From the NCBI RefSeq assembly GCF_002846555.1, contig NZ_PJMS01000001.1:4448501-4512500 (forward strand): DNA of 64,000 nucleotides, in the 5' to 3' direction. The notes below the pieces were generated by a model that was not told the DNA's origin, did not search any database, and saw nothing but the letters and a program-made list of their open reading frames with translations. Both the position numbers and the translations under genes were made by a program. Position 1 is the stretch's first letter, and each line of letters opens with the position of its first letter. Source of the DNA: Aquimarina sp. MAR_2010_214 (GTDB lineage Bacteria > Bacteroidota > Bacteroidia > Flavobacteriales > Flavobacteriaceae). Below, piece after piece: positions 38,438 through 63,750 of this stretch.

Positions 38438-38451
38438 AAAAATGCGTCGCT

Positions 38452-46051: not shown

Positions 46052-46067
46052 ATTAAATAGAAAAATC

Positions 46068-46842: not shown

Positions 46843-49554
46843 ATGAACGCATCCCAAATAGAAAAAAACGTAACAGAATTAGTTGAGAATTTCAATAAAG
46901 AAGAATTTGTATTCGACTTACTGAAAGCCTACGGTATCTCTAAAACATCTATAACACGTTTAAAGAAAGGGGATTTTAATTTATCTAAAGTTGAAGGAGA
47001 AGTACTTTATAAAAGTAAAATGCTTTTTAAAGAAGTAGCATCTGGTACACTTTTAAATACTATTGATGAATTAACAAAAGATACAGATTCATTAAAACAC
47101 AATCCACGCTTTGTAATTGTAACAGATTATATAACCTTATTAGCAAAAGATATAAGAACAGGCTTAGCGTTAGATACGCCTATTCTCGAAATACATAAAC
47201 ATTTTGGTTTCTTTTTACCTTGGGCAGGACAAGAAAAATACGCTCAAAAAAACGAGAATTATGCAGATAGAAAAGCGTCATACAAAATGGCGAAGCTTTA
47301 TGATATTTTAGTTACAGAAAATCCAAAGATCTATGATGATGGTGGGCATAACTTAAATATTTTTCTGTCTCGTTTACTATTTTGTTTTTTTGCAGAAGAT
47401 ACCGACATATTTCCTGTTGAGGGTATGTTTACAGATACATTAGAGCAACATACTCAAAAGGATGGAAGGGATACACATGCATTTTTAGATAGACTTTTCA
47501 AAGTTCTAAATACAGAAGACAATAGTAATGAAGCATCACATTTTAAGGAGTTTCCATATGTAAACGGTGGTTTATTTAGAGATACTATTGTATCACCAAA
47601 GTTTACTAAAGAAGCACGTAAAATAATTATCGAGTGTGGTGATTTAGATTGGAGCGAAATCAATCCAGATATTTTTGGTTCTATGATACAGGCGGTAGTA
47701 AATCCTGCATATCGTAGTGGTTTAGGTATGCATTATACGTCTGTGCCTAATATTATGAAGGTTATTGAACCTTTATTTTTAAACGAATTAAATGAGGGAT
47801 TTGAGAAGAATCTAAATGATGTTGGTAAACTTAAAAAGCTTATTAATCGTATAGCAAAAATTAAAATTTTTGATCCTGCTTGTGGTAGCGGTAATTTTTT
47901 AATTATTGCTTATAAACAATTGCGACGTTTAGAAATAAAGATTTTATCAAGAATCTATGAAATTAACCATCAACTTAATTTAGGTTTTCCAGATGTGTAC
48001 ACCAAAATTAAATTATCTCAATTTTATGGTATAGAGTTAGATGATTTTGCACACGAAATGGCAATCTTATCTTTATGGTTGGCAGAACATCAAATGAATA
48101 AAGAGTTTATTAGTGAGCTTCACGATTACGGTAAAGCTGAAGATATTTTACCTTTAAAAGAAGCTGGTAATATTACACAAGGCAACGCGACGCGCTTAAA
48201 TTGGGAAGATACTTGTCCTAAAAATGAAAACGATGAAATCTATATTTTAGGAAATCCACCCTATTTGGGCTCATTCCTTCAAACTAAAGAACAAAAATCA
48301 GATTTAGCACTTGTTTGTAGTGGTTTTAAATCGTATAAAGATTTAGACTATATCTCCTGTTGGTTTATTAAATCGGCTCGTTTTGTTCAAAAAGATAATG
48401 TGAAGTGTGCGTATGTAACAACCAATTCAATTTGTCAAGGAGAACAAGTTTCATTATTGTGGCCATTTATATTATCAAAAAATCTTGAAATATTTTTTGC
48501 TTATAATTCATTTAAATGGACGAATAATGCAAAAGGCAATGCGGGAGTTTATTGCACAATAATTGGTATTCAGAAGAAGTCTAATACAAAAAAGAAAATA
48601 TTCAATCAGACTTCCTTTGAAGTAGTAGATAATATTAACCCCTATTTAACGTCAGGTAGCAGTGTAGTTCTTAAAAAAAGGACTAAGCCTCTTTCAGTAA
48701 TACCTCCTATGAATTATGGTAGTAAAATTGTAGATAGCGGTCATTTAATATTTTCAACTGAAGAGAAGAATAAACTTATAACAATCCATCCAAAAGTTGA
48801 AGTGCTTTTTAAAAGATTACTTGGGTCAGCAGAATTCATCCGAGGGAAACAAAGGTGGTGTCTATATATAAAAGATGACCAATTAGAATTTGCTCAATCT
48901 ATTCCACAAATAGCAGAAAGGTTTGAAAAGGTAAAAGAATTTAGAAATAAGAGTACTGAACCTAGCACTAGGGAGATGTCCAAACAACCGCATAAGTTCT
49001 ATTACTCAGTACATAATAATTCAAATTCCATTATTATCCCAAGAACTTCTTCTCAAAGGCGTGAATATATTCCTATGGGATTTTTGGATGGAGATACTAT
49101 TGTTTCCGATGCTGCAAGTGTAATCTTTAATGCTACTATTTGGAATTTCGGGATTATCACTTCTAAAATGCATATGAGGTGGGTTCAGGCCGTTGGAGGG
49201 AGATTAAAAACAGATTATAGATATTCATCTCAATTATGTTATAATACATTTCCATTTCCAGAAATTTCTCAAAAACAAAAAGAACAAATTAACTTGCATG
49301 TTTTTGAAATACTAGAAGAAAGAGAAAAACACTCAGGTAAAACTATGGCACAACTTTACGACCCCGACAAAATGCCTAAAGGTTTAAAAGAAGCGCATCA
49401 TCAATTAGATTTAGCTATTGAACGTTGTTATCGTTTAAAACCATTTGAGAGTGATACAGAGCGTTTAGAATATCTTTTTAAGGAGTATGAAAAGATGATA
49501 AATAAAAATACCTTGTTAGAAAAACCAAAAAGAACACGTAAAAAGAAAGCCTAA
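46843..49554 (+). CDS. MmeI/YeeA-like class I DNA methyltransferase with target-recognition domain
   Basis: This is a 903-residue adenine-type DNA methyltransferase. Motif I DPACGSGNF is near residue 343 and motif IV NPPY near 470. The second half carries a recognition domain (GSKIVDSGHLIFSTEEK, FKRLLGSAEFIRG) and the MmeI-type C-terminal helical part with YDPDKMPKGLKEAHHQLD. The N-terminal part lacks a recognisable D-ExK nuclease site, so cutting is probably left to partner proteins. It heads an operon with an SF2 helicase (3 bp later) and a GIY-YIG protein. The order matches the yeeA-yeeB-yeeC group that I recall from Bacillus subtilis. Confidence 0.88.
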   Translation: MNASQIEKNVTELVENFNKEEFVFDLLKAYGISKTSITRLKKGDFNLSKVEGEVLYKSKMLFKEVASGTLLNTIDELTKDTDSLKHNPRFVIVTDYITLLAKDIRTGLALDTPILEIHKHFGFFLPWAGQEKYAQKNENYADRKASYKMAKLYDILVTENPKIYDDGGHNLNIFLSRLLFCFFAEDTDIFPVEGMFTDTLEQHTQKDGRDTHAFLDRLFKVLNTEDNSNEASHFKEFPYVNGGLFRDTIVSPKFTKEARKIIIECGDLDWSEINPDIFGSMIQAVVNPAYRSGLGMHYTSVPNIMKVIEPLFLNELNEGFEKNLNDVGKLKKLINRIAKIKIFDPACGSGNFLIIAYKQLRRLEIKILSRIYEINHQLNLGFPDVYTKIKLSQFYGIELDDFAHEMAILSLWLAEHQMNKEFISELHDYGKAEDILPLKEAGNITQGNATRLNWEDTCPKNENDEIYILGNPPYLGSFLQTKEQKSDLALVCSGFKSYKDLDYISCWFIKSARFVQKDNVKCAYVTTNSICQGEQVSLLWPFILSKNLEIFFAYNSFKWTNNAKGNAGVYCTIIGIQKKSNTKKKIFNQTSFEVVDNINPYLTSGSSVVLKKRTKPLSVIPPMNYGSKIVDSGHLIFSTEEKNKLITIHPKVEVLFKRLLGSAEFIRGKQRWCLYIKDDQLEFAQSIPQIAERFEKVKEFRNKSTEPSTREMSKQPHKFYYSVHNNSNSIIIPRTSSQRREYIPMGFLDGDTIVSDAASVIFNATIWNFGIITSKMHMRWVQAVGGRLKTDYRYSSQLCYNTFPFPEISQKQKEQINLHVFEILEEREKHSGKTMAQLYDPDKMPKGLKEAHHQLDLAIERCYRLKPFESDTERLEYLFKEYEKMINKNTLLEKPKRTRKKKA

Positions 49555-49557
49555 TAT

Positions 49558-51501
49558 ATGCCAGATATAGTACACGTAAAATACCAACAAACAGGTAAAA
49601 GTAAAAGCACCAACGAATATGGTATGCGAGAAATGCAACAAAAGGCATTTGAGGCTCGTACTGCTCAATACTTATTAATTAAAGCACCACCAGCTTCTGG
49701 TAAATCTCGTGCATTAATGTTTATTGGATTAGATAAACTGGTAAATCAAGATATAAAAAAAGTAATTGTTGCAGTTCCTGAACGGTCTATTGGTAGCTCG
49801 TTTGCTAAAACAGAATTAAAGAAGTTTGGGTTTTTTACAGACTGGGAGCCTAATCCAAGATATAATTTATGTACGCCTGGTGTTGAAAAAAGCAAAGTAA
49901 CTGCATTTCTAAACTTTTTAGAAAGTGATGAAAAAATACTAATCTGTACACACGCTACGTTGCGTTTTGCTTTTGAAGCCATAGACGAAAAACAACTAAA
50001 TGATTGTCTATTGGCAATAGATGAATTTCATCACGTATCTGTAGATGGAGATAATAAGTTAGGTATTGTGTTAAGTAGTGTAATGGAAAAATCTACTGCT
50101 CACGTAGTGGCAATGACAGGTTCTTTTTTTAGAGGTGATTCTGTGCCAATTTTATTACCAGACGATGAAGAAAAATTTATTAAAGTAAAATATGATTACT
50201 ACCAACAATTAAATGGGTATAATTATTTAAAGTCATTAGGTATTGGTTATCATTTTTATCAAGGAAGATATACATCTGCAATTCACGAGGTTTTAGACGA
50301 GGATAAAAAAACAATTATTCATATTCCAAGTGTTAACTCTGGTGAATCTACAAAAGATAAATATGAAGAAGTTAATAGAATTATTGATGGTTTAGGGGAG
50401 TTAGATTATCAAGACCCAGATACAGGTGTTTTATATGTTATAAGTAAAACAACAGGAAAGACTTTAAAGATTGCTGATTTAGTTCACGATAATCAAAAGG
50501 ATAGGGATAAAATACAAGAGTATCTGCGCAATGTAACAAGTGTAGATGATATAGATATTATCATAGCATTGGGTATGGCTAAAGAAGGGTTTGATTGGCC
50601 ATATTGTGAACATGCTTTAACTGTTGGTTATAGGGGTTCATTAACGGAAATTATTCAAATTATCGGTAGAGCAACAAGAGATAGCGAGAATAAATCACAT
50701 TCACAGTTTACCAATTTAATTGCACAACCAGATGCAGAAGACGATTTGGTCAAATTATCTGTAAATAATATGCTAAAGGCAATTACAGCATCTTTATTGA
50801 TGGAGCAAGTATTAGCGCCAAATTTTAAGTTTAAACCTAAATTTCCAGAAGAAGATGAAATAGATGGCGTTGAGGAAGAGGGAGAAGATTACATAGCTAT
50901 AAGAGGTTTCAAGTTACCAAGTTCACAAAGAGCAAAAGATATTATTGAAAGTGATATTAATGACTTGAAAGCAAAAATAATGCAAGATGATACAATGCTA
51001 AAGGCAATGCCTGGTAATGTAGATCCCGAAGTAATTAATAAAGTATTGATACCTAAAATTATTAAAGAAACCTATCCAGACTTATCAGATGAGGAAGTAG
51101 AAGCTGTACGTCAACATATTGTGGTAGATTCTGTAATAAAAAATGGTACTATTGAAGAAGTAGGTGATAAACGCTTTATTCGTATGGCAGATAGTTTTGT
51201 GAATATTGATGATATTAATATTGATTTAATAGATACAATCAACCCATTTCAAAAAGCATTTGAAATATTATCTAAATCAGTAACTGCATCAGTATTTAAA
51301 GCCATTCAAGAAACTATTGATGCTACAAGAATAACAATGACTGACGAAGAAGCAATTATATTATGGCCTAAAATAAAAAACTGGATAGCAAAAACAGGCG
51401 AACAACCAAGTATTCAGTCTTTTGATCCGCAAGAAAGACGTTTAGCAGAAGCTATTATATTTTTAAAAGAACAAAAGCGTAAAGCAGCATCTAATGAGTA
51501 A
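49558..51501 (+). CDS. DEAD/DEAH-box helicase of a restriction-like system
   Basis: This is a 647-residue superfamily 2 helicase. Motif I is APPASGKS at 43-50, motif II is DEFHHV near 155, motif III is MTGSFF near 186, and motif VI is QIIGRATRD near 365. After the two RecA-like domains come about 200 residues of helical, acidic sequence without a known fold. It begins 3 bp after the methyltransferase and overlaps the GIY-YIG gene by 8 bp. In restriction systems such a motor moves along DNA and brings the nuclease to distant sites, so that task is likely here. Confidence 0.87.
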   Translation: MPDIVHVKYQQTGKSKSTNEYGMREMQQKAFEARTAQYLLIKAPPASGKSRALMFIGLDKLVNQDIKKVIVAVPERSIGSSFAKTELKKFGFFTDWEPNPRYNLCTPGVEKSKVTAFLNFLESDEKILICTHATLRFAFEAIDEKQLNDCLLAIDEFHHVSVDGDNKLGIVLSSVMEKSTAHVVAMTGSFFRGDSVPILLPDDEEKFIKVKYDYYQQLNGYNYLKSLGIGYHFYQGRYTSAIHEVLDEDKKTIIHIPSVNSGESTKDKYEEVNRIIDGLGELDYQDPDTGVLYVISKTTGKTLKIADLVHDNQKDRDKIQEYLRNVTSVDDIDIIIALGMAKEGFDWPYCEHALTVGYRGSLTEIIQIIGRATRDSENKSHSQFTNLIAQPDAEDDLVKLSVNNMLKAITASLLMEQVLAPNFKFKPKFPEEDEIDGVEEEGEDYIAIRGFKLPSSQRAKDIIESDINDLKAKIMQDDTMLKAMPGNVDPEVINKVLIPKIIKETYPDLSDEEVEAVRQHIVVDSVIKNGTIEEVGDKRFIRMADSFVNIDDINIDLIDTINPFQKAFEILSKSVTASVFKAIQETIDATRITMTDEEAIILWPKIKNWIAKTGEQPSIQSFDPQERRLAEAIIFLKEQKRKAASNE

Positions 51502-52684
51502 AAAGAAAACATTAGAAGATATATTTAATGATGATGAGTTTGGAATTTTAGATTCTAAACCCAAAAATTCTAATGTAAAAACTGAGGATGAACGACTAAT
51601 TGAATCGTTCCAAGAAATTAATGCCTTTTTCGAAAAAAATAATCGTGAACCAGAAGCAACGAATGTAGCCGAATTTAAACTTCTATCAAGATTAAAAGCT
51701 TTAAGAAAAGATGCTAAAAAAGTAGAGATTCTTAAATCATATGATACGCACAATCTTTTAAATTCTAAAGAAGAAGTGAAATCGGTAGGAGATATTTTAA
51801 ATGATGATGATTTAGGCATATTAGACACAGAAGAAACCTTATCTATTTTTAAATTAAAGAACGTACCAAGTTCAACAGAAAGAGCGGAATCTGATTTTAC
51901 TGCAAGAAGAAAGGCAATGAAAGACAAAGATTTTGAGCATTATGAAATACAATTTAAAAAAGTACATAAAGAATTACGTGAGGGTAAACGTAAATTAAAA
52001 GAATTTAAAGATGTAGAGAAAAACCTTGAAGAGGGTAAATACTATGTCTTAGATGGTGTATTATTGTTTTTAGAAAAAGATGGTTTAGAGGATAGACAAA
52101 TAGGTGATAGAACTAGAAAAGACGGAAGAACTATAACTATATTTGAAAACGGTACATTAAGCAATATGTTTTATCGCTCACTAGCTAAAGCCTTGTATAA
52201 TAATGGGAGTATTGTTTCAGATACAGATATAGATGCAGAAAAAGAGCTTTTTAAAAATGCAAATATAGTTAGTGAAGAAGATATTCAGACAGGATGGATA
52301 TATGTGTTAAGGTCTAAATCTACTAATCCAAAAATTGCATCAATTAATGATTTGTATAAAATTGGTTTTTCATCTGTAGATGTCAATGAGCGTATTAAAA
52401 ATGCTTCTAAAGAATCTACCTATTTATATGCAGATGTGCATTTACTTGATAAGTATGCTTGTTATAATATGGATGCACAAAAGTTTGAACATCTAATACA
52501 TCGCTTCTTTGCAGATGTTTGTTTAAATGTTGATGTATTTAATGATAAGGGAAAAAGAATAACACCAAGAGAATGGTTTGTTGCTCCGAGGCCAATTATA
52601 GATAAAGTAGTTACATTAATATTATCTGGAGATATTGTGGATTATAGATATGATAATACTAATATGGTGTTGATTAAAAAGTAA
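51494..52684 (+). CDS. GIY-YIG nuclease-domain protein
   Basis: This is a 396-residue protein with a C-terminal GIY-YIG (T5orf172-like) nuclease domain: GWIYVLRS near 265-272 gives the first motif, LYKIGFS near 286-292 the second, and FEHLIHRFFAD near 333-343 the catalytic-glutamate helix. The N-terminal half is charged and contains an internal repeat: LEDIFNDDEFGILDS at 6-20 and VGDILNDDDLGILDT near 98-112. This repeat may be a docking peptide for a partner. It overlaps the helicase by 8 bp and is probably the effector nuclease of the operon. Confidence 0.83.
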   Translation: MSKKKTLEDIFNDDEFGILDSKPKNSNVKTEDERLIESFQEINAFFEKNNREPEATNVAEFKLLSRLKALRKDAKKVEILKSYDTHNLLNSKEEVKSVGDILNDDDLGILDTEETLSIFKLKNVPSSTERAESDFTARRKAMKDKDFEHYEIQFKKVHKELREGKRKLKEFKDVEKNLEEGKYYVLDGVLLFLEKDGLEDRQIGDRTRKDGRTITIFENGTLSNMFYRSLAKALYNNGSIVSDTDIDAEKELFKNANIVSEEDIQTGWIYVLRSKSTNPKIASINDLYKIGFSSVDVNERIKNASKESTYLYADVHLLDKYACYNMDAQKFEHLIHRFFADVCLNVDVFNDKGKRITPREWFVAPRPIIDKVVTLILSGDIVDYRYDNTNMVLIKK

Positions 52685-52708
52685 ATAGAGATTAAACATA
52701 AGATTAAG

Positions 52709-52825
52709 AAATTTTTTTTTTTAAATGATTGGTTATTCCCTATGTTAATGAATGGGCAGGTTACTGTTGGTGGAGTAGAAAGTGAATTGAGGATGGCTGG
52801 AGAGGATATAGAAGATTATAATTAA
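52709..52825 (+). pseudogene. 3' remnant of a type I restriction specificity gene (hsdS)
   Basis: In one frame the DNA reads FLNDWLFPMLMNGQVTV and on to a stop at 52,823. The string D-W-L-x-P-M-L-M-N-G-Q-V is a well-known C-terminal end of HsdS subunits in this phylum. No start and no recognition domains are present, and a run of ten T residues interrupts the upstream reading. Only the tail of a former type I system is left here, directly behind the GIY-YIG gene. Confidence 0.7.
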
Positions 52826-52885
52826 TTTTTTAAAACCTATTTACTTTTTTCGTTTTGGTAGTATGTTATAAGAAAATATTAAAAT

Positions 52886-53179
52886 ATGGAGTTAATAAAT
52901 GTATTAAAAGTAAATGAAAATTCAATATTATTTGAATATTACGAAACAAGAATAAATCAAAGCTTATTAAATAGTCACACGACAGAAGCTAATATTTATA
53001 GATTTTCTAATCCTGAAAATGGAACAGAAGAAGATCGCTTTATAATGATGTATTCAGGTAATATACAAAGTAATTTGGAAACTCAAATTGCACATTACAT
53101 ATTTCAAAAACAAGATGAAAGGACTATGTATATAATTAGATCAGACAGGTTTAATATTGATTTAGAATTAGTGAAATAA
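52886..53179 (+). CDS. Hypothetical protein, first gene of five-gene operon
   Basis: This 97-residue protein has mixed strands and helices (MELINVLKVNENSILFEYYE, EEDRFIMMYSGNIQSNLETQI) and no membrane segment or signal. I do not recognise a family. Spacing is tight: 13 bp to the P-loop gene, which runs on into the AbiV-like, ATPase and HNH genes. It is therefore the likely first gene of that operon and not a leftover of the upstream restriction genes. Its start at 52,886 is 61 bp behind the hsdS remnant. The function is unknown. Confidence 0.6.
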   Translation: MELINVLKVNENSILFEYYETRINQSLLNSHTTEANIYRFSNPENGTEEDRFIMMYSGNIQSNLETQIAHYIFQKQDERTMYIIRSDRFNIDLELVK

Positions 53180-53192
53180 ATTTAAGACGATT

Positions 53193-53630
53193 ATGAAAAG
53201 AATAATAATTCTAAAAGGAGTAAGTAATACAGGTAAGACAACAAAAATCAACCAAATAGCTGATTGGATTATTAGAAAATATTCTATTCCTAATACAATT
53301 GGATTAGATATTATAGATTTTGAAAAAGACACAATGGGTTTGTTAAAAGTAAATAATTTAATTATTGGTATTAATACAGCTGGAGATGATGATGAATGTA
53401 TTAAACAAATAGATACTATTGCTCCTAATTGTGATATTCTTATTTGTAGCTGTAGAACAAAAGGAGTTACTTATCAGCATATTTATAAAAATTATAATCA
53501 TAATTCTGGATGGCTGGAAACTAAAATAATTGTCGATAAAATAGATCCTCCAAGTGTTGTGCATCAATCAATAAGAGACGCCAATATTATTGACGAGATC
53601 CAGACTTGGTTAATAGGTATGGAGAAATAA
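53193..53630 (+). CDS. Small P-loop NTPase
   Basis: This is a 145-residue protein with a Walker A motif GVSNTGKTT at 9-17. A strand VNNLIIGINTAGDDD (about 52-66) and NCDILICSCRT (about 79-89) follow, the latter in a Walker-B-like place but without the final acidic pair. The size and shape recall small kinases or AAA-like single-domain NTPases. It lies 13 bp after the first gene and 9 bp before the AbiV-like gene. Function in the operon is unknown; it could act as a sensor or a nucleotide kinase. I cannot place it in a known defence family. Confidence 0.7.
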   Translation: MKRIIILKGVSNTGKTTKINQIADWIIRKYSIPNTIGLDIIDFEKDTMGLLKVNNLIIGINTAGDDDECIKQIDTIAPNCDILICSCRTKGVTYQHIYKNYNHNSGWLETKIIVDKIDPPSVVHQSIRDANIIDEIQTWLIGMEK

Positions 53631-53639
53631 AAGCATATA

Positions 53640-54365
53640 ATGAAACAGTTCATTCATTTAACACCAAAAGAGTCTAGAGGCTTAGATATACCTATTTATA
53701 AAAACGCATTGCAATTAAAAAAAGACGCCATTTTAATAGCTAATACAAGAAAGTCTTATAGCTCTGCAACTTCTTTGTTAATATTAAGTTCTGAAGAAGC
53801 GATAAAATCTGTTTTAGTTAGGCTACATGCGGAGCAATACAATATTTATAAATTAAAGGAATCGAGTAAGTTTTTTAGAGACCATAAAATTAGGCATCAA
53901 ATGGCACAACTCATAGAAATGGGCTCAGGTCTTATTGAGTCTATGATGAAATATGACGAGCAAAAACCAACTGAATTTTTAAAAACAAAAGTAAGTTGGC
54001 TTGATGATTTGGTTAACGGCGCTATTGATTTAGTTAAAGCCGCAAGCCCATTACTGGATGCTACCGAAAGAATAAAAGAATTGCAAGAATTTAACGATTT
54101 AAAAAATAAAGGCTTCTATGTAGATTATAGAGATGGTTTAATATTGCCTCAGAATGAGATAACAGAAACTATTTACAATAGAACGTTGTTTATTACTGAA
54201 CGTGTAGTTAGGTTTAGTAAACTAATTAGGATTTTAAGCCATGAGAAATTAGAAAACCATATGCCAAATGAAGAAATAAACAAAAATAAGGAGCTACTAA
54301 AAGATTTCATAGATAATGCTATGCAAGATTTTTCATTTAAGGATTTAAATAAAAGTATGGCATGA
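53640..54365 (+). CDS. AbiV-family (HEPN-type) abortive-infection protein
   Basis: This 241-residue protein resembles the AbiV family, which Pfam groups with HEPN domains. Typical marks are the N-terminal IYKNALQLKKDAILIANTRK and SSATSLLILSSEEAIKS (about 41-57, the E-E pair). The motif RDHKIRH at 80-86 is an R-x5-H with a polar residue after the arginine, as in active HEPN ribonucleases. The C-terminal half is helical. In Lactococcus, AbiV stops phage growth by hindering late translation. It overlaps the ATPase gene by 4 bp (ATGA), so it is likely part of a three-protein core with the ATPase and the HNH protein. Confidence 0.75.
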   Translation: MKQFIHLTPKESRGLDIPIYKNALQLKKDAILIANTRKSYSSATSLLILSSEEAIKSVLVRLHAEQYNIYKLKESSKFFRDHKIRHQMAQLIEMGSGLIESMMKYDEQKPTEFLKTKVSWLDDLVNGAIDLVKAASPLLDATERIKELQEFNDLKNKGFYVDYRDGLILPQNEITETIYNRTLFITERVVRFSKLIRILSHEKLENHMPNEEINKNKELLKDFIDNAMQDFSFKDLNKSMA

Positions 54366-56677
54366 GGTTAGTTGCAGTGTACATATTAGAACATTACCTT
54401 TTTGAAGAACCTCAAGTGATCAATATAGTTGGTCGTTATTTATATGATATCACGCTTGAGTATAAAAAAATTATAATAAATAGGATTAAGAATACTGAAT
54501 ATGTTGATAATTTACATTCTAATAGTATTACTGAATTATCAGCTATAGTAGGTGCTAACGGAAGTGGTAAAACAACAATTTTTTCCATAATCAATAAAGA
54601 TCATGATACAACAAGAGCAATTTTCCTATATGAAGATTTTAATCATGAAATAAAAATAGTAAATAGAACAGGAATGTTAGATGAAAATGGAAATTTCACT
54701 AAAAGGTCTCAGGTTCCTGTTTATTTTAATGAATCAAAAGTTCATTCAGTACCCAATATAGATATACAAACTTTATATTATTCACCAATCCCAGATGAAG
54801 ATTTAAGCAATTTTGGTTCTTCCATTTCAAAGACTTACCATTTTAAATCAACTTTAATTGATTATCACTTAGATAATATAGAGCGTTCAATAATGTTAAT
54901 GACGGATGATGTGGTTGATGAGATCAAACGAGTTTATCCAGAGCTACCTTTATATAACCATATAAGTTTATCTGCAAAACCATTATATAAAAGAGATTTA
55001 AGGAACACCTATGGGGGCTTTAAAATTGAAGGTGATATTGAAAAATCTCAAAAAGAGGCTTTAGAGAAATTATGGGAAAGTTATCCAACAAATAATGAGG
55101 ATAAGAAACATTTAACACATGACGGTCTTAGTTTTTATAGAAATATTGAGATCAATATTTTATCATACCTATTAATTGATAGCACCTCAATGGAAACTGC
55201 TTTTAATGGCAAGTATAACATTAGTTATTATGATATAATTAAAGAAGAAGATTTTTATGAAAAATTAAAGCATTTATTTTTACATAAAATTGCTTATATA
55301 GACAAGTATATCTATTATTATTTAAAAGATTTGTTAACTGATTATGATTATCAATCATTACTTTTTCATTTTGAAAGCACCAATTTTGATGAGAAACTAA
55401 AGGAAAAGCAAAGTAATCTAATTTCTTTGATTAGAAGTTATAAATTATCTGCTAGGAGATTAGAGAAAAATGAATGGAACGAGTCTTTTAGTGAGTCATT
55501 AGATTTATTACTGAATTCTGAATTTGAAGGAGAAGAATTTAAAAATATAAGAGAAAACCTTGAAAAATATCATAGCCATATAAGTATTAAAATTATTGAG
55601 AATAAAAAAAATATTCTAGATTATATTATTACTAGCTTAGAGAAAGTTGAAATTGGAATAAATAAATCATTTGATGCAATTTTTGAAGCAAGATTCGAAA
55701 TAATAGATCAACTGAAAAATGGAGTAAAAAAGGCCATTAAATTATTTAGTGCAATCCAGATTTTTTATACGTTTACAATCAATTTTGTTGAAAAAGAAGG
55801 TGTCGAGTTGATTGAGGGGAAAATAAATCTAAATCTTAGGATCATTAACTTTAATGATTTTAAAAACTTGATTCAGAAATATAAAAACGTCATAGAAGAG
55901 TTTAATGGAAATTCTTTAATTAATGCTCAAATATTAGAATTTAGACCAGATAAGAGACTGTCATATGGTGAAAAATCGTTATTAAATCTATTTAGTAGTT
56001 TTTATGAGTTTACTATTCGGAAACACCATCATTTTAGAAGAAAAGAACACTACATTATTTTATTAGATGAGGCTGATTTGGGGTTTCATCCTCTTTGGAA
56101 GAAGAAATTTGTTAGTGCAATTGCCAAGATTATTCCAATAATTTTTGAGAAGCTTAATGCAAATGTTGACAATTCTGGTAATCCTGAGTTAGAAACTAGA
56201 AAAACACAAATTATAATATCAACTCATGATCCTTTAACACTATCTGACATACCTAACTATAATATTGTTTATATAGATAGACTTAAAAACGGTAAGTCTG
56301 ATGTAATAAGTATACTAGATGATAATTACAAACCAAAACAATCTTTTGGAGCAAATGTTCACGATCTATTAGCTCATAGTTTCTTTTTAAAACATGGTTT
56401 TATGGGTGAGTTCGCAGAAGAAATCATCACGGATTTGGTTAATTATTTAACATTTAAAGAAGATGAAAAAGTTTCAGATGAAAATGTTAAATATTTTAGA
56501 GAGTGGGATGAACTAAAGGCTGAAAAAGTAATAACTATAATAGATGAGCCTTTAATAAAAGAAAGAGTGCAATCCTTATTTATTAAAAAATTTCTATATA
56601 ATGAAAAAGAGTTGTTACGTTTAAAAATACAAGAATTAGAAAATCAAATAGCAAGATTAGATAATGAGGAAAATTAA
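54362..56677 (+). CDS. Large AAA/ABC-type ATPase of a Septu-like pair
   Basis: This is a 771-residue ATPase of the SMC/ABC-like class. Walker A GANGSGKT lies at 64-71, the signature-like LSYGEKSLLNLF lies near 535, Walker B IILLDEADLGFHP near 566-578 and the switch histidine in ISTHD near 620. A central helical region of about 350 residues separates the halves. The last 30 residues form a short coiled coil. Such ATPases work with HNH nucleases in the Septu (PtuA/PtuB) and some retron systems; this one is longer than a usual PtuA. It overlaps both neighbours, AbiV-like (4 bp) and HNH (14 bp). Confidence 0.82.
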   Translation: MRLVAVYILEHYLFEEPQVINIVGRYLYDITLEYKKIIINRIKNTEYVDNLHSNSITELSAIVGANGSGKTTIFSIINKDHDTTRAIFLYEDFNHEIKIVNRTGMLDENGNFTKRSQVPVYFNESKVHSVPNIDIQTLYYSPIPDEDLSNFGSSISKTYHFKSTLIDYHLDNIERSIMLMTDDVVDEIKRVYPELPLYNHISLSAKPLYKRDLRNTYGGFKIEGDIEKSQKEALEKLWESYPTNNEDKKHLTHDGLSFYRNIEINILSYLLIDSTSMETAFNGKYNISYYDIIKEEDFYEKLKHLFLHKIAYIDKYIYYYLKDLLTDYDYQSLLFHFESTNFDEKLKEKQSNLISLIRSYKLSARRLEKNEWNESFSESLDLLLNSEFEGEEFKNIRENLEKYHSHISIKIIENKKNILDYIITSLEKVEIGINKSFDAIFEARFEIIDQLKNGVKKAIKLFSAIQIFYTFTINFVEKEGVELIEGKINLNLRIINFNDFKNLIQKYKNVIEEFNGNSLINAQILEFRPDKRLSYGEKSLLNLFSSFYEFTIRKHHHFRRKEHYIILLDEADLGFHPLWKKKFVSAIAKIIPIIFEKLNANVDNSGNPELETRKTQIIISTHDPLTLSDIPNYNIVYIDRLKNGKSDVISILDDNYKPKQSFGANVHDLLAHSFFLKHGFMGEFAEEIITDLVNYLTFKEDEKVSDENVKYFREWDELKAEKVITIIDEPLIKERVQSLFIKKFLYNEKELLRLKIQELENQIARLDNEEN

Positions 56678-57665
56678 AATAACAGATGATCTTCGTAAAA
56701 ATGTAAAGACTTTTAATGACAATCTCTTTATCAATACAAGAACTAAAGGCTTTGAGATTCCAATTAATAGATTAAACAGTTTTCTTAAAATAATAAAACC
56801 TCGTAAGCACAAACAGTATAAACTTTATGTTGAAAAAATAATCGATGAGTATGAAGATATTTTAAATGCCGATCCATTAAAAATGGAAAAACTGATATTG
56901 GAATTTGATGCAGTTTTGCATAACTCCCAGTTAAATAGTAAAATAACAAGCAGAAGGTTTAGTTTTCATGAAAAGGTAGTTGAAGCTATGCGCTATGAAG
57001 ATCTTAGAGCTAAAGAATTTCCAGATTACTTATTAAATTCTAATTTAAAAACCTGTGTATATTGTAATGCTCAATCCACATTAGTTATTGAAAAGAAATT
57101 TTATGATAAAAAAAAGAGGAGGGCAAAGCAAATTTTGGCTAAACTTCAATTAGATCATTATTATCCAAAATCAAAATATCCTTTTCTATGCACTTCTTTT
57201 TTTAACTTATATCCAACTTGTGCCAACTGCAACCTTGCTAAAGGGAGTAAAGAAGCATTGTTTGAGCTTTATACTACAACTAATGATTTAGATTTATTTA
57301 ATTTCAAAATTGATGATAAATCGATATTAGATTATTTAATTAAGTTTGAGCTAAACCATTTAAAAGTGGATTTAGAATCTATGACTGGAGACTTTACTTT
57401 ACTTAAAAATCATAATGAATTATTTCAAATAGAGGCAGTTTATGAGAGCTATAAAGATGTTGCAGAAGAATTAGTTTTAAAGGCTAAAGCTAATCCTCAT
57501 TCTTATAGAAGTACATTAGAAAAAAACTACTCAAAACTGTTTCCAGACCCAACGATAATAGACAGGCTATTGGTTGGGAATTATACTAAACCAGAGGAAT
57601 TAGGAAAAAGACCATTGTCTAAATATACTCAGGATATAGCTAGACAATTAAAAATTATAAAATAG
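56664..57665 (+). CDS. HNH endonuclease of a Septu-like pair
   Basis: This is a 333-residue HNH nuclease. Zinc-binding CVYC (131-134) and CANC (186-189) flank the active site with LDHYYPKSKYP (His165) and FFNLYP. The sequence CNLAKGSK completes the HNH fold. Roughly 125 residues before and 130 after the nuclease domain are helical and probably bind the ATPase. It begins inside the end of the ATPase gene (14 bp overlap) and closes the operon. In Septu, the ATPase subunit holds PtuB inactive until infection is sensed, and a like arrangement is plausible here. Confidence 0.83.
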   Translation: MRKIKITDDLRKNVKTFNDNLFINTRTKGFEIPINRLNSFLKIIKPRKHKQYKLYVEKIIDEYEDILNADPLKMEKLILEFDAVLHNSQLNSKITSRRFSFHEKVVEAMRYEDLRAKEFPDYLLNSNLKTCVYCNAQSTLVIEKKFYDKKKRRAKQILAKLQLDHYYPKSKYPFLCTSFFNLYPTCANCNLAKGSKEALFELYTTTNDLDLFNFKIDDKSILDYLIKFELNHLKVDLESMTGDFTLLKNHNELFQIEAVYESYKDVAEELVLKAKANPHSYRSTLEKNYSKLFPDPTIIDRLLVGNYTKPEELGKRPLSKYTQDIARQLKIIK

Positions 57666-57675
57666 AATATTTGGT

Positions 57676-57840
57676 ATGTCCAATAATAAAATAACGATTA
57701 TTAAGGAAAAAGCAAGCCTCTTAAACAATTTAAGTAATAACGAAGGAGCACTTTTTGAATACACAGACAAAACCTGAAAATCAATTGAATCTGATGATTT
57801 TGATCTAATGAGTAATTTTGATGAAGTAAAGGGCGGATAA
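57676..57840 (+). pseudogene. Truncated copy of the mcrB start
   Basis: The stretch starts MSNNKITIIKEKASLLNNLS and is nearly the same as the start of the mcrB product (58,264), including an identical run of 20 bases TTAAACAATTTAAGTAATAA. It stops at TGA (57,775) after 33 codons. If that codon were read through, a further 20 codons (KSIESDDFDLMSNFDEV and so on) end at 57,838 and do not match mcrB. It looks like a broken duplicate joined to other DNA. Confidence 0.75.
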
Positions 57841-57855
57841 ATAAAAGAAATAGCT

Positions 57856-58236
57856 ATGAATAAATATGGTACAGCTGCAATAAATGCAGCTAAAAAAAGT
57901 CAAAACCCAATTGAATCATGGAAAACAGCCACGAAAAAAAATTTTAATAGTAAGGACTCCCAAGATAAGTCTTGCCCTAAAAATGCGTTTTTAGGTTTAT
58001 GTGAAGCTGGTTTGATTAAGAACATTAAGGCAGGTTCATATTTTAAAACGTCTAAACCTAATGTAAATAAACAATATGCTATCACAGCGGTAAAAATACT
58101 AAAACGCACTCCTACTATTTCAAGAAAAGAATTATGGAAACAAGTTAAAATAGAATTACTTATAGAAAAAAAAGATCATAACTCTCAAATGGATGTTGTT
58201 TTGGCTCTATGGAATGAGGGATTGATTGTGAAGTAA
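57856..58236 (+). CDS. DUF6979-like small protein
   Basis: This is a 126-residue basic protein with the pattern NKYGTAAINAAK at the N-terminus, then a CPKNAFLGLCEAGLIKNI motif near 40-57, YAITAVKILK, and a C-terminal HNSQMDVVLALWNEGLI. I believe this to be the family annotated as DUF6979, whose role is unknown. It lies between a broken mcrB start and the intact mcrB, 27 bp before the latter. The repeated cysteine-lysine loop and the helical ends suggest a small DNA- or protein-binding fold. It may be an accessory factor of McrBC or a passenger brought in between the two copies. Confidence 0.7.
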   Translation: MNKYGTAAINAAKKSQNPIESWKTATKKNFNSKDSQDKSCPKNAFLGLCEAGLIKNIKAGSYFKTSKPNVNKQYAITAVKILKRTPTISRKELWKQVKIELLIEKKDHNSQMDVVLALWNEGLIVK

Positions 58237-58263
58237 GAATAGGTTTAGTTTAAAAAAACAGAA

Positions 58264-61044
58264 ATGAATACATTAGAAATCATAAAACAAAAAGCCAGTT
58301 TCTTAAACAATTTAAGTAATAACGAAGATGCACTTTTTGAGTATATAAATAACAATCACGAAAATTTAGACGAGGTTATACATCAGTATAAACCAGAACG
58401 AGGGTTTAAGCCAGTAAACACTTTACGCTTTTTAATAGCTAGCGAGCTTAAAAAAGGAAATAGAGTAACAGTAGAAATTGTTAACAGTTTAAAACAAGCT
58501 ATAGAAAATAGAGATGTGTCCTCATATTATAGTCTTAACGATGCAGTACAACAAAGTCTAGCAAATTATAAAGACAGCAAAAAAGGAATGTTTCCCAATT
58601 GGAGAGATGCCTTCAAGGTTTTATTCCCATTTATACATAGTATATCAGATAATAAAGAGGTCAAAACACTGCTAGATCAATTAGTTAATCAAATTGTTGA
58701 AACAAATAATTTGCAGAATATAAAGAAACACCCTATAAGTTTTCAAGGTTCTCAAAATTATGGTTCGGATCATATTTGGGTTGCCATCTATCCAAAAGCT
58801 TCACCTAATGTACAAAGTGCCTATCAAATTTTTTTTAGTATTGATCATAATGGAATAAAAGGTGGAATCCATAAAGGGCATAAATTAGAAAAAGGTATTT
58901 ATTCTTATGACGATGAAGTTTTTAATAGATGGGAAGCATTTTTAGAGAATACAAAAAGTTGGGTAGATGAGTGGCAGTTGTTAAACTCTAGATTGGATTT
59001 CAGCTCTTTAAAACAATCAAAATATTATTTAGTTGGAGCATATTGGAAGGATACTAGTCCTAAAGATCAAACAGATCGTTTTGTGAGAGAAGGTGTATGG
59101 GTTAATGGATATGAAGAAGATAAATCTCTATCGGTGGTCAATAAAGTTAATATTGGTGATCATATCGCTATAAGGTCTGTAGATAAGCGTGGAAATAATA
59201 TGTACATAAAGGCTAGAGGTATTGTTACTTCTAACTTAAGAGATGGGAGACATCTTGAGGTGGAATGGGAAAAAGAGTTTGAAGTTTTTAAGTTGAATTT
59301 TTCAGGTGGTTATTGGGATACAATTAGAAAATTAATTAAAGAAAGTCATATTAATGCTGTTTGGTCAAATAATAAAAATATGGAAAATGTTAAACAAGAA
59401 TTTATTGATTGGTATATAGCCAATCCAAGATCAAGTTATTTCAATAATCAACCTGAAAAAATTGACGATTATTTAACTAAATCATTAGAATTTTTCTCTA
59501 AGGATATTTTTTTAGTTAGCCGAGCTACTTATAAAGAAATGGTTGAATTTATAGAAGATACAATCAATAATAATAAAGCTAAGTTTTTAAAAAATCATGG
59601 TGCTCCTGACTCAGGGAAGCTTGCAGCTATTGTAGGAAAAAGAAATTATCAAAAATTTTTATTGGGATATTTCGAAAAAAAAGAAGAGAATGCATCAAAA
59701 AAAGAGGTTGGTATGGAATATAAACGAGCAATAAACCAAATTTTTTACGGCCCTCCAGGAACAGGAAAAACCTACAGTACAATTCTAGAAGCAGCTAAAA
59801 TTATTGAACAAGAAGAGGTAATTTACTATGATGAAAGTCAGAAGATATTTAATGAACATTTAGGAGGACGTATTGAGTTTATAACATTTCATCAAAATTA
59901 TAGCTACGAAGATTTTATACAAGGTTTGCGTCCAGACATAGAGCAAAAAGAATTGAGTTTTAATAGAGCAGATGGTGTGTTTACTAAAATGGTCACTAAT
60001 GCCTTGTTTGAATATTATAAAGTCTATCAGCAAAACCAAAAAGAAACTTTAGATGATACCGAAGTAAAAATTGATTTAAACGACGCTTATATTGAGTTTT
60101 TAGGCTCATTAAAAGAAGGTCAAGAGTTTGAAACCAAAACAGGGTCAAAAATAAAAGTAGATAATTTTACAGATAGGCAAAATATTGAATTTAAACCTTT
60201 AAACGGTGTGAAGTCCTATTTGGTGTCTGGTAATAGGTTATTGAAATTATATGACGTATTTAAAGATATTGATGAAATCAAACTTGTTCATGAGGATATT
60301 AGAGGTGCTATAGGCGGTTGTAATTCTACGATCTACTATGTCGCATTACGAGAGTTTATTTCATTTTTAAAAGTATACGAGGATACCTTAAACGAGTTTG
60401 TTGATATTGAGGAAGATTATGACGACGATAATATTACGTATCGTAGAAAAAAGGAATTATTATCAAATATAAGTCTGGATGAATTAAGAACGGTTTCAGA
60501 AAATGACGTTCCTAAATATGTCATTATCATTGATGAAATTAACAGAGCAAATATTTCAAGAGTTTTTGGCGAACTTATTACATTGATTGAAAAAGATAAG
60601 CGTTCAGGTGGTGACATACCTTTATCTGCAACTTTACCATCTGGAGAGAAGTTTATCGTACCATCTAATTTGTATATAATTGGCACAATGAATACTGCTG
60701 ATAAATCTATTGCACTTTTAGATATAGCGCTTAGACGACGTTTTGAATTTGTACCGATGTATCCTAAGGTAGAAATTATAATAGACGGAAATAATATTGT
60801 TAATGATGCCGAGATTCTACAAAAATTAAATAATGAAATAGTGTCTAAAAAAGGCCATGATTTCACTATTGGGCATTCTTATTTTATGGGTAAAGAATAT
60901 GTGCTCAAAAATACCGTCGATAATAAAGTGATTCCATTGTTACTGGAGTACTTTATGAATGATTTCGGAGAGGTAGAAAAAATACTGAAGAAGGCAGGGT
61001 TAACTGTTGAGGGTTGGCCTATGAAATTAGTGAGAAATGACTAA
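58264..61044 (+). CDS. mcrB: McrB-like AAA GTPase of a modification-dependent restriction system
   Basis: This is a 926-residue protein. After about 95 helical residues comes an MrcB_N/DUF3578-like domain (about 100-240, KVLFPFIHSISDNKEV, DHIWVAIYPKAS). A PUA/EVE-like region follows near 250-345 (YYLVGAYWKD, VNIGDHIAIRSV), which could read modified bases. The AAA motor has GPPGTGKT near 497-504, IIIDEINRANISRVFGEL near 752-769 and NTADKSIALLDIALRRRF near 808-825. These are McrB signatures. It overlaps mcrC by 8 bp. GTP rather than ATP use is expected by family. Its N-terminal end is duplicated 600 bp upstream. Confidence 0.93.
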   Translation: MNTLEIIKQKASFLNNLSNNEDALFEYINNNHENLDEVIHQYKPERGFKPVNTLRFLIASELKKGNRVTVEIVNSLKQAIENRDVSSYYSLNDAVQQSLANYKDSKKGMFPNWRDAFKVLFPFIHSISDNKEVKTLLDQLVNQIVETNNLQNIKKHPISFQGSQNYGSDHIWVAIYPKASPNVQSAYQIFFSIDHNGIKGGIHKGHKLEKGIYSYDDEVFNRWEAFLENTKSWVDEWQLLNSRLDFSSLKQSKYYLVGAYWKDTSPKDQTDRFVREGVWVNGYEEDKSLSVVNKVNIGDHIAIRSVDKRGNNMYIKARGIVTSNLRDGRHLEVEWEKEFEVFKLNFSGGYWDTIRKLIKESHINAVWSNNKNMENVKQEFIDWYIANPRSSYFNNQPEKIDDYLTKSLEFFSKDIFLVSRATYKEMVEFIEDTINNNKAKFLKNHGAPDSGKLAAIVGKRNYQKFLLGYFEKKEENASKKEVGMEYKRAINQIFYGPPGTGKTYSTILEAAKIIEQEEVIYYDESQKIFNEHLGGRIEFITFHQNYSYEDFIQGLRPDIEQKELSFNRADGVFTKMVTNALFEYYKVYQQNQKETLDDTEVKIDLNDAYIEFLGSLKEGQEFETKTGSKIKVDNFTDRQNIEFKPLNGVKSYLVSGNRLLKLYDVFKDIDEIKLVHEDIRGAIGGCNSTIYYVALREFISFLKVYEDTLNEFVDIEEDYDDDNITYRRKKELLSNISLDELRTVSENDVPKYVIIIDEINRANISRVFGELITLIEKDKRSGGDIPLSATLPSGEKFIVPSNLYIIGTMNTADKSIALLDIALRRRFEFVPMYPKVEIIIDGNNIVNDAEILQKLNNEIVSKKGHDFTIGHSYFMGKEYVLKNTVDNKVIPLLLEYFMNDFGEVEKILKKAGLTVEGWPMKLVRND

Positions 61045-62398
61045 TCTTTTTGAATATGAAAATACCGAACCATTTGCTGAAGGTCATTTTGAGGATCTGG
61101 AAGTATTTTTAGATGAAATTTGGTCTAAAAGAGAGAAATCGAGTTATTATACGGAGGAAGATAATAGAGTAGAAACACAACGGTTTATTCAGTTCTTAAA
61201 TAAGACTAAAACATTAAAATCTAATAAATATGTAGGTGTTATTCATTTTGAGGGAGAAACAATAAACCTACTTCCTAAGATATTCTTTAAAGGAGAAGAG
61301 GCAACAGAGAATGATGTAAAAGCTATTAATAAACATATATTATGGTGGTTAAGCTATTGTAGGAAATTAAAGTTCCCAAATTATCTTTCAGGACTAAATA
61401 GTGAAAGAGCAGATTTTTTTGAAATTCTCATTTACCTATTTAGTAAATACACAAGAGAACTTTTAAACTCTTCCATATATCAAAAATATACTGAAGTAAA
61501 GAAAGAGTTGTCCTTCGTGAAAGGAAGAATAAATTTTAACACCTATATAAAAGATAATTTATCAAGAGGAAGGAATCATAAAATAAGTTGTGAGTTTGAT
61601 GCTTTTGAGATGGATAATGAGTTTAATAGATGCGTGAAATTTGTCTCTAAGCTTTTGTTGTCAATCACGAAGGAAAATCAAAGCAGACGTTTTTTAAGTG
61701 ATATTTTATTTATTCTCGATGAGGTGAAAGACGTAAATGTTTCCTCAGAAAGAATGCAACGTATGACATTCAATCCGATGTTTTCAGATTTTGAAACCAT
61801 ACGTGATTATTGTGTGCTCTTTTTAAATAATAGTGTTTCTTTTAATTATAAAAACTCATTAAAACTATTTGCATTTTTACTACCAATGGAATATGTTTTT
61901 GAGGACTTTGTTTTTGGTTTTATAGATAAAGAAATTGATGCTATAAAAGCAAAAGCAAAAGCTCAAGCGGGGTCTAAGCATTTGGATGTGGAAGAAAATT
62001 TTGCTTTAAAGCCTGATTTATATTTAAAATTAAATGACAAGAATGTAATTGCTGATACGAAATATAAAATTGTATATACGAATGATACGGATTCTAAAAA
62101 AGGAATCTCTCAAAGTGATTTGTATCAAATGCTAGCATATGCTGTAAGGTATAAAATAGATGAGATTGTTTTATATTATCCTAATACGATTAACAAATAT
62201 GACCCTAATATTTCTGAAATAGTTATCATCGACGAATTAGCAGAAGGCAAGAATATAAAAATTCGTTCATATCAACTACCTATAATTAATTATGAACTTT
62301 TTAAATTCAATAAGGAAACAGAAGTACCTTTAATAGAATTATTTGAGTCCACAAAAATTGAACTTATAAAAAGCATAAATAGCTCTCTCCTACTATAA
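61037..62398 (+). CDS. mcrC: McrC-like nuclease of a modification-dependent restriction system
   Basis: This 453-residue protein partners McrB. The N-terminal part (GVIHFEGETINLLPKIFF, YLSGLNSERADFFEILIYLF) binds McrB and helps it hydrolyse GTP. The C-terminal PD-(D/E)xK nuclease shows DLYLKLNDKNVIADTKYK near 326-343 with the acidic D and the D-x-K, and the downstream QMLAYAVRY helix. It overlaps mcrB by 8 bp. Together they cut DNA carrying foreign modification, such as 5-methylcytosine or related bases. The two genes form the last clear defence unit of the island. Confidence 0.93.
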   Translation: MTNLFEYENTEPFAEGHFEDLEVFLDEIWSKREKSSYYTEEDNRVETQRFIQFLNKTKTLKSNKYVGVIHFEGETINLLPKIFFKGEEATENDVKAINKHILWWLSYCRKLKFPNYLSGLNSERADFFEILIYLFSKYTRELLNSSIYQKYTEVKKELSFVKGRINFNTYIKDNLSRGRNHKISCEFDAFEMDNEFNRCVKFVSKLLLSITKENQSRRFLSDILFILDEVKDVNVSSERMQRMTFNPMFSDFETIRDYCVLFLNNSVSFNYKNSLKLFAFLLPMEYVFEDFVFGFIDKEIDAIKAKAKAQAGSKHLDVEENFALKPDLYLKLNDKNVIADTKYKIVYTNDTDSKKGISQSDLYQMLAYAVRYKIDEIVLYYPNTINKYDPNISEIVIIDELAEGKNIKIRSYQLPIINYELFKFNKETEVPLIELFESTKIELIKSINSSLLL

Positions 62399-62465
62399 TT
62401 CTTATAGCCTCCACACTATAACAGTCAGCTATACTTATAAATCAAAATCGCAAATTGAATTTGGT

Positions 62466-63614
62466 ATGCAAAACAAAACTTTAACAAGACTAGAAATCTA
62501 CGAATTAGTATGGTCTAAAACTATTCGTGACATACTAAAAGAGTATGCTTTAACAAATACTACTTTTAAATATATTTGTTCAGAAAATGATATTCCGGTT
62601 CCAAAAATGGGGTATTGGCAAAAGTTAAAACACAATAAAAAAGTTTTAAAACCACCTCTTCTCGAAACGAACAAAACATATAAAAACATTAAACTTCCTA
62701 TTAGAATAAAAGGTCAAGAAAGCATTACTAAAATGACTGAAATCAACTTGTTGGTTCATGAGATTAAAAACAACAAGAAACTCCTTATAAAAGTCCCTGA
62801 AAAACTTTATAAGCCAGAGAAAATAACAGCTGCAACAAAAGATTATTTTAAAAGAAAACAAAAAAGCAAATACCCTTATAAAGTTGAAGAACCAAAAGAA
62901 GGTTTGTTAAGTCTTTCTGTTTCAGACAATCTAGTTAATAGAGGATTACGTTTTTGGGACACTTTAATTAAACTGCTAATCCAAAGAGGTCATAAGGTTG
63001 AGGTAGTAAGAAATCACAAATACACTAACTATAACGGAACCAAGTTTGTTATTCATGGTGAATATTTTGATATGCGGCTTAGAGAAATGGATAAAAGGGT
63101 AATGGAGGAATCAGACTTTAATTGGAAAACAGCCAAATATTACCCTACAGGAAAACTTAGTCTAAAAATAGATAATTATCCTAGACATGAATGGCAAGAC
63201 ACTAAAACTAAACTTATAGAAGACAAACTTCCAAATATCGTAGCTTATCTAGAGCTTAGTGCAAAAAAGGAAAAAGAAGATCGTATAAAAAGCGAAATTC
63301 GCAGAAAAGAGCAAGAAATAATTGAAGCTAAAAAAAAAGCTATTCAAAAGGAAAAGGATCATGAATTTGCGCAATTGAATAACCTATTTGAATCCGCATC
63401 GAGATGGCATAAAACACAATACCTTCGAGGTTATATCTGGGAGTTTGAAGATTTTCTTAAAACAAACAACTCTTTGGATTCGAAAAAAAAAGAATGGATA
63501 AACTGGGCAAAAGAAAAAGCTGATTGGCTTGATCCCTTTGTTGAAAAGGAATTGAAGTTATTAGAAGATATTGATAGAGATTCATTGAAACCTACACACA
63601 AGACATATTACTAG
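62466..63614 (+). CDS. Island-associated hypothetical protein with N-terminal GYW motif
   Basis: This is a 382-residue protein. Its N-terminal part reads LTRLEIYELVWSKTIRDILKEYAL, then CSENDIPVPKMGYWQKLK, a pattern I remember from hypothetical proteins of genomic islands in many phyla: a short HTH-like helix pair ending in P-x-x-GYW-x-K. The middle is a basic, lysine-rich stretch, then a beta-rich domain (KVEVVRNHKYTNYNGTKFVIHG). A long charged coiled coil follows (about 265-305), and the end contains a helical region with YLRGYIWEFEDFL. It is transcribed 67 bp after mcrC. The function is unknown; defence or regulation of the island is possible. Confidence 0.72.
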   Translation: MQNKTLTRLEIYELVWSKTIRDILKEYALTNTTFKYICSENDIPVPKMGYWQKLKHNKKVLKPPLLETNKTYKNIKLPIRIKGQESITKMTEINLLVHEIKNNKKLLIKVPEKLYKPEKITAATKDYFKRKQKSKYPYKVEEPKEGLLSLSVSDNLVNRGLRFWDTLIKLLIQRGHKVEVVRNHKYTNYNGTKFVIHGEYFDMRLREMDKRVMEESDFNWKTAKYYPTGKLSLKIDNYPRHEWQDTKTKLIEDKLPNIVAYLELSAKKEKEDRIKSEIRRKEQEIIEAKKKAIQKEKDHEFAQLNNLFESASRWHKTQYLRGYIWEFEDFLKTNNSLDSKKKEWINWAKEKADWLDPFVEKELKLLEDIDRDSLKPTHKTYY

Positions 63615-63750
63615 TCCTTATGTTATTAATGTTAGGTGTAAATTGTAAGATTTTTTTTGTTATATTTATAATCTCTCCTATAATTAATAGCACGTTTTTT
63701 ATTGATAATTATTGCATTCAAATTATACTAACCAACCAACCAATATTAAT

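Follow-up and report, generated by a model that had tools for sequence, protein, structure and literature searches.

AbiV and a PDC-M62-type ATPase–HNH pair beside the remnant of a type I hsdS gene in an Aquimarina genome

INTRODUCTION

Septu and the type I-A retrons encode PtuAB, an ABC-type ATPase followed by an HNH protein. The PtuAB pair of Septu EcB88 acts on tRNA-Tyr (PMC13096335), and tRNA-Tyr is depleted with that of retron-Eco7, direct cleavage being left undecided by the authors (PMC11555353); the Septu system of E. coli ATCC25922 is cited in the same paper as cutting DNA. PDC-M62, listed in PADLOC as a candidate system, has the same order of ATPase and then HNH gene, and 203 PDC-M62 calls coincide with Septu calls in one survey (PMC11811056). 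AbiV of L. lactis has a HEPN fold (PDB 9bj5, 9bj6, 9bj7), and the title of entry 9bj6 describes it as 'an RNase in a two-component antiphage system'. In PrrC of EcoprrI an ATPase and a HEPN RNase lie beside restriction genes, on one polypeptide within the hsd neighbourhood (PMC3710099). Here we analyze a module of five genes of Aquimarina sp. MAR_2010_214 that includes relatives of AbiV and PtuAB. It occupies positions 52,886–57,665 of the stretch of 64,000 nt that we call the window.

The module was originally predicted to be an undescribed defence operon, in which an RNA nuclease and a DNA nuclease would be placed under one ATPase. Our analysis indicates that known modules are arranged here in a new way, with a recombination history that is informative, and that they form no new combined system. 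On balance we favour the explanation that at least two separate and interchangeable second-line cassettes stand in a slot behind a former type I hsdS gene, in place of one system of five parts. The first cassette would be AbiV, to which the small P-loop and 97-amino-acid proteins might also belong, and the second the PDC-M62/Septu-like ATPase–HNH pair. What had been supposed to be a new five-part machine thus sheds light on the assembly of defence genes.

MATERIALS AND METHODS

The window runs from position 4,448,501 to 4,512,500 of the forward strand of contig NZ_PJMS01000001.1 (assembly GCF_002846555.1); the genome is a single contig of 5.98 Mb. A family sample of 397 genomes was profile-searched with the ATPase, AbiV and the P-loop protein. 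The ATPase matched in 23 genomes, of which 22 were evaluable; G177 was left out because a contig end cuts its ATPase. Named relatives of the module proteins come from genera including Tenacibaculum, Psychroserpens and Mangrovimonas, which we take to belong to the Flavobacteriaceae. An order sample of 356 genomes gave 16 loci of the pair in 14 genomes not yet counted, with G000 and G080 omitted as counted already. A total of 38 loci were therefore assessed for AbiV. The profile search for distant AbiV proteins covered all 3327 open reading frames (ORFs) of the fetched loci with filters off, and the Pfam domain scan covered the 10 proteins of 49558–62398.

In the comparison of upstream methylases we left out AAA_21 rows of <400 amino acids and those absent from a second listing, as well as N6_Mtase rows that had small frames, were second pieces or scored very low; four long UvrA-like frames in that comparison were recognized by length only. 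Since L070 duplicates L072, one HsdS gene is counted twice in the scoring of the hsdS remnant and in the test for repeats of the hsdS end.

RESULTS AND DISCUSSION

The five genes and the ATPase–HNH pair

All five genes lie on the + strand. They encode a 97-amino-acid protein without a family match (orf97, 52886–53179), a P-loop protein of 145 amino acids with a small kinase-like fold (53193–53630), an AbiV-family HEPN protein of 241 amino acids (53640–54365), an ABC-class AAA_21 ATPase of 771 amino acids that is of the PDC-M62A type and PtuA-like (54362–56677), and an HNH protein of 333 amino acids that is of the PDC-M62B type and PtuB-like (56664–57665). The gaps of 13 and 9 bp and the overlaps of 4 and 14 bp that were first described are exact on the ORF coordinates, and together with the profile matches they confirm a set of defence genes in tight spacing.

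The last two genes form a PtuA–PtuB-like pair as predicted, with intact ATPase and HNH motifs and weaker matches to PtuA and PtuB themselves. The best PADLOC family for the ATPase is PDC-M62A (2.6e-50), followed at a distance by mad3 as the best family outside M62 (2.3e-11) and by the best PtuA (1.1e-10). That for the HNH protein is PDC-M62B (2.5e-43), against 2.2e-9 for PDC-M01B, the best other family, and 9e-7 for the best PtuB. Thus the PDC-M62 models surpass those of PtuA and PtuB by ∼40 and ∼36 orders of magnitude, respectively, and PDC-M62 is also the best match of all nine relatives scanned (eight ATPases and one HNH protein). The pair is therefore already listed as a candidate system, which counts against an undescribed operon. 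It differs from PDC-M62 in the length of its ATPase, 771 amino acids compared with 597–746 in the eight models listed, and AbiV and the two small genes are no part of those models. Among the best 25 of 44 PADLOC matches for each of the two proteins there is no LmuA or LmuB of Lamassu, and the 10 scanned proteins contain no reverse transcriptase domain such as would mark a type I-A retron.

The ATPase carries a Walker A sequence VGANGSGKT, a signature LSYGEKS and a Walker B sequence ILLDEAD followed by STHD, and all three motifs, with the T-H-D after Walker B, are kept across an alignment of 27 sequences. In the HNH protein C131, C134, D164, H165, N181, C186, C189, N190 and K193 are invariant in 23 of 23 aligned homologues, and are putative catalytic and zinc-binding residues. 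We infer that the pair would be an infection-activated nuclease; as related pairs act on either tRNA-Tyr or DNA, the HNH protein may be a DNA nuclease or may instead cut tRNA. For the candidate pair PDC-M62, the locus provides a setting in which it can be tested.

AbiV and the pair are mostly found apart

How often does AbiV accompany the ATPase–HNH pair? It adjoins the pair in 2 of the 22 evaluable family loci, the window itself and G262 (L050). In the latter AbiV lies directly before the ATPase, followed by the HNH gene, with protein identities to the window of ∼50%. None of the 16 loci of the order sample has AbiV beside the pair, giving 2 of 38 loci overall and 36 in which it does not adjoin the pair. 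The sensitive profile search of the 3327 ORFs found AbiV beside another pair in L050 alone. As a positive control it recovered the distant AbiV of L089 at 4e-4, and it is therefore sensitive enough for a distant AbiV, if not for every conceivable HEPN protein. Because AbiV adjoins so few of the pairs we reject a single five-gene system, and with it the proposed joint control of an RNA and a DNA nuclease.

A composite system, in which the AbiV RNase and the HNH protein would both answer to one ATPase sensor and the small proteins would be trigger or inhibitor, would fit the spacing and overlaps of the five genes, and the AbiV–ATPase–HNH order of G262 keeps it alive at low probability. It is opposed by the 36 pairs that lack an adjoining AbiV, by the AbiV genes of L054 and L072 that have no adjacent pair, and by the small genes, neither of which has a homologue beside any other fetched pair, that of G262 included.

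A viral origin of the module was considered and rejected, since the viral contigs hold no relative of the ATPase or the P-loop protein and one distant AbiV; so was a plasmid origin, as plasmids gave partial ATPase matches of <60% and no AbiV or P-loop match. Phage sequences, searched with AbiV alone, gave no match. A search of genome contigs with the ATPase matched common ATPase motifs and yielded at least four loci, two of them with an ATPase–HNH pair (L003 and L004).

Remnants on both sides of the module

The module is flanked by the debris of other genes. The 201-bp gap before orf97 includes, in the frame of the preceding GIY-YIG gene past its stop, 34 codons and the stop from the 3′ end of a type I hsdS gene (52721–52825, + strand). 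When this remnant was scored against the 3327 ORFs the top 12 were all HsdS (11 distinct genes), with scores of 125 to 87 and the next at 45, while 200 shuffled versions, with 400 ORFs sampled for each, reached 57 at most. It has 71% amino acid identity to the HsdS of L060 by tblastn (E = 2e-10) and a nucleotide identity of 87% over 97 nt, and it matches nowhere else in the window genome at E ≤ 0.001. Among 51 sequences there are 13 longer matches to the hsdS tail, 11 of which lie inside HsdS ORFs and two outside, in the window and in L072, which speaks against a general occurrence of such detached tails. On the other side, the 190 bp after the HNH gene open with the start of mcrB, after which the frame breaks. 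The stub of 86 nt (57685–57770, + strand) is 78% identical to 58267–58352 at the start of the mcrB gene that follows; an mcrB match of 89% spans 55 nt, and the frame of the stub scores 105 compared with a best of 50 in 300 shuffles. By their sequence, then, remnants are present on both sides.

Given a tail of hsdS before the module and a stub of mcrB after it, hsdS and mcrB probably flanked the module in this order in an ancestor. The order persists in L060, L067, L077 and L097, and in L062 with one small gene between. We suggest that the cassettes would occupy a slot 3′ of the former type I hsdS, that the type I operon has been lost, and that the operon of MmeI-type, helicase and GIY-YIG genes now stands in front, with the hsdS tail and mcrB stub left behind. 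The arrangement suggests that type I restriction came first and its replacement later.

Pieces of this kind occur at other loci as well. In L072 (8587–9613) AbiV lies between two copies of the hsdS end, a 125-bp direct repeat (88.8%). In L054 two shorter pieces of the hsdS end (41 and 29 bp) are repeated among inserted genes, and the region of the mcrB stub together with DUF6979 is found directly after AbiV (79% over 149 bp). A tentative extension, which we regard as possible though doubtful, is that in Flavobacteriaceae the 3′ end of type I hsdS serves as a dock for recombination. Cassettes such as AbiV, the ATPase–HNH pair and others would enter at the conserved tail, sometimes leaving extra copies of it, and could outlive a swapped restriction operon. 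If so, first-line restriction and second-line abortive cassettes would form a plug-in array with a readable history.

The restriction-gene context

Seventeen of the 22 ATPase–HNH pairs have an N6-methylase gene no more than 8 kb upstream in the same orientation, compared with 5 of 29 for the other AAA_21 proteins (≥400 amino acids) of the same genomes (Fisher p = 3.7e-5; 5 of 25 and p = 1.2e-4 when the four UvrA-like frames are omitted). Thirteen of these loci are of type I and four of the MmeI type. In 10 of the 22 the ATPase gene follows hsdS immediately, with a spacing of −4 to 22 bp, and in others one to a few genes lie between. McrBC follows the pair directly, or after one small gene, in 8 of 22. 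The literature that we covered, with few subscription papers and no preprints, has no account of AbiV or PDC-M62 behind hsdS.

Several observations weigh against separate cassettes in an hsdS slot. The spacing in the window would permit one transcript for all five genes, and the adjacency of AbiV and ATPase recurs in G262. The P-loop gene is found without AbiV (at 1e-10) in all five of the other genomes that carry it. There is no methylase upstream of the pair in 5 of the 22 family genomes; in one of these loci it follows ResIII-helicase and PHP-AAA genes, and in another a gene with a weak match to JetD. A repeat of the hsdS end is present behind hsdS in 5 of 20 HsdS rows, one gene being counted twice, two of the five repeats are weak (L069 and L074), and L050 has none although AbiV follows hsdS there. 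Moreover, the link to restriction–modification (R-M) genes came from the family sample and was therefore tested on the order sample, where a full R-M operon is upstream in 1 of 16 loci (L097) and HsdR with an AAA gene in one more (L092). The link is thus a feature of the family sample, and not of PDC-M62 at large. In L095, an order locus from another family, the pair lies behind a trio of TerB-C, BrxC/D and Lhr-like helicase genes (Pfam), with genes of the same sizes in L100 and L101. In L094 it stands behind a GIY-YIG/Schlafen-type helicase, and in the rest of the order loci no defence gene was recognized among those neighbours that were scanned.

These mixed or absent defence neighbours would be expected if the genes were passive neighbours, collected independently in a defence island on a mobile element and functionally unlinked both to one another and to the restriction genes. 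The 5 of 29 other AAA_21 ATPases that also lie behind a methylase gene, and the integrase, NikA-like and relaxase genes upstream in the window, point the same way. Loose clustering would not readily give hsdS and ATPase genes that overlap or nearly touch in 10 of 22 loci, nor the repeated use of the same slot, and we consider this reading rather unlikely.

The frequency of hsd genes upstream invites a comparison with PrrC, in which the RNase is held inactive through direct contact with the restriction complex. The pair, AbiV or both might be guarded in the same manner, and freed when a phage inhibits the complex; the 13 type I and four MmeI-type neighbours of the family genomes and the PrrC precedent (PMC3710099) would be consistent with that. 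As in EcoprrI an ATPase and a HEPN RNase are found beside restriction genes. In contrast to PrrC, however, the HEPN and ATPase matches fall on different proteins of the window, 3′ of the R-M operon, and there is an HNH protein in addition. The type I operon of the window is gone, with an unrelated R-M operon in its place, and pairs without R-M genes exist, so that such a guard appears quite improbable.

We therefore return to the interchangeable cassettes, and to how they might act. When first-line restriction fails, the ATPase would sense infection and the HNH nuclease would be freed or activated, cutting nucleic acid, either tRNA or DNA. AbiV, as a HEPN RNase, would stop translation upon a trigger of its own, possibly paired with the P-loop protein, and both cassettes would lead to abortive infection. 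As a different restriction system now stands in front, the cassettes probably respond to a generic trigger and do not rely on touching one given restriction enzyme. The scars suggest that abortive modules need no particular restriction partner.

AbiV

The identification of the third gene as AbiV is secure, with scores of 88 bits for Pfam HEPN_AbiV (curated cut-off 27.1) and 71.6 bits for TIGR04498 (cut-off 27). The proposed active motif R80-D-x4-H86 stands in part. Its letters are present and in the right place, but R80 is an arginine in only 8 of 36 aligned relatives, whereas H82, R85 and H86 are present in 36 of 36. AbiV is probably active through these three residues, judging from their conservation. 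A survey of HEPN proteins scores AbiV as 'No' for the Rx4-6H motif, with an alternative conserved histidine instead (PMC3710099), while the title of PDB 9bj6 names AbiV as an RNase. The L. lactis protein shares the HEPN fold with an identity of only 16–18%, and reads R-N-H-K-S-K-H opposite the window motif in an alignment with an E-value of just 0.16; R80 of the window AbiV is not conserved in its subfamily. A profile match to PrrC (8e-4) was set aside as weak.

AbiV profiles matched in 6 of the 397 family genomes, and a search of 395 order genomes matched the window and two others. The four genes scoring >300 bits (window, G262, G153 and G573) all lie downstream of R-M genes, with three genes intervening in G153; in L054 and L072 AbiV lies behind R-M genes without an adjacent pair. 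AbiV, known from dairy bacteria, thus gains a recurring home downstream of restriction genes; the table of the HEPN survey gives no operon context for it (PMC3710099). For the four weaker matches of 44–78 bits (G143, G322, G328 and G570), the references used revealed no type I or MmeI gene. The AbiV gene of G328 lies close to a restriction gene of the GmrSD type and to an SMC-like ATPase, and that of G322 to an ApeA HEPN gene.

The genome of the window has a second and distant AbiV-family gene (L089, 6162–6836, at ∼1883200 of the genome; Pfam 144.7 bits, a stronger score than that of the module gene). No restriction gene was found beside it among the references used, and its setting differs from that of the module. 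An AbiV homologue of 32% identity is encoded on a viral contig (L007, 9000–10675), directly after a D12-class adenine methylase gene.

The two small proteins

In the P-loop protein K15 is conserved in 20 of 20 aligned sequences and T16 in 19. Its matches are weak, being HMUD2 at 19.4 bits (cut-off 25) and a PHROG called guanylate kinase at 4e-4, and 6 of the 397 family genomes matched its profile. Two database entries of the P-loop protein share their source and an equal longest contig (34361 and 2333) with AbiV entries, taken from the best 120 of 135 AbiV matches, which suggests that entries with a common source are adjacent. Pfam, PADLOC and PHROGs gave nothing for the 97-amino-acid protein, an NCBIfam match far below its cut-off being meaningless, and the 52 fetched loci contain no homologue. 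DNA elsewhere in the genome that matches the beginning of its gene at 79% was examined and is not a paralogue.

Neighbouring genes and mobility

The module is preceded on the + strand by an MmeI-family R-M protein of 903 amino acids (46843–49554; Pfam MmeI_Mtase 1.2e-106, MmeI_TRD 1.3e-81, MmeI_N 1.7e-28), which is the present R-M gene. After 3 bp comes a DEAD/ResIII helicase of 647 amino acids (49558–51501; DEAD 7.6e-9, ResIII 1.9e-5), and overlapping it a GIY-YIG-type (T5orf172/MUG113) protein of 396 amino acids (51494–52684; T5orf172 1.3e-11, MUG113 2.2e-13). This operon, at 46843–52684, is an unusual restriction-like set in its own right. Beyond the mcrB stub, on the same strand, lie a DUF6979 protein of 126 amino acids (57856–58236; Pfam 1.6e-43), a McrB-like AAA protein that precedes mcrC (58264–61044; AAA_5 9.5e-14) and is homologous to McrB-like ORFs beside other pairs, and McrC (61037–62398; Pfam McrBC 1.5e-70). 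Promoter and terminator scans did no better than shuffled sequence, and Rfam gave no match at gathering level in 46000–64000.

Further upstream, an integrase (38401–39609) adjoins an mnmE-like gene, and a NikA-like protein (44682–45194) is followed by a MobA/VirD2 relaxase (45191–46051). The segment 38401–46051, which also holds VapE/DUF5906 and primase-like proteins, may be an integrative mobilizable element carrying the whole defence region. No end repeat of the element was found, since a query from the mnmE side gave back its own sequence plus four weak matches; joint travel of the defence and mobility genes is thus an inference.

Two further arrangements may be recorded. In L080 (5696–6331) DUF6979 is followed by a fragment of 79 residues from the N-terminus of McrB, another broken mcrB beside DUF6979. 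In L063 an MmeI-type gene and a Shedu SduA-domain protein precede the ATPase–HNH pair and McrBC-like genes (Pfam), and by homology L061 has the same arrangement with two extra genes between.

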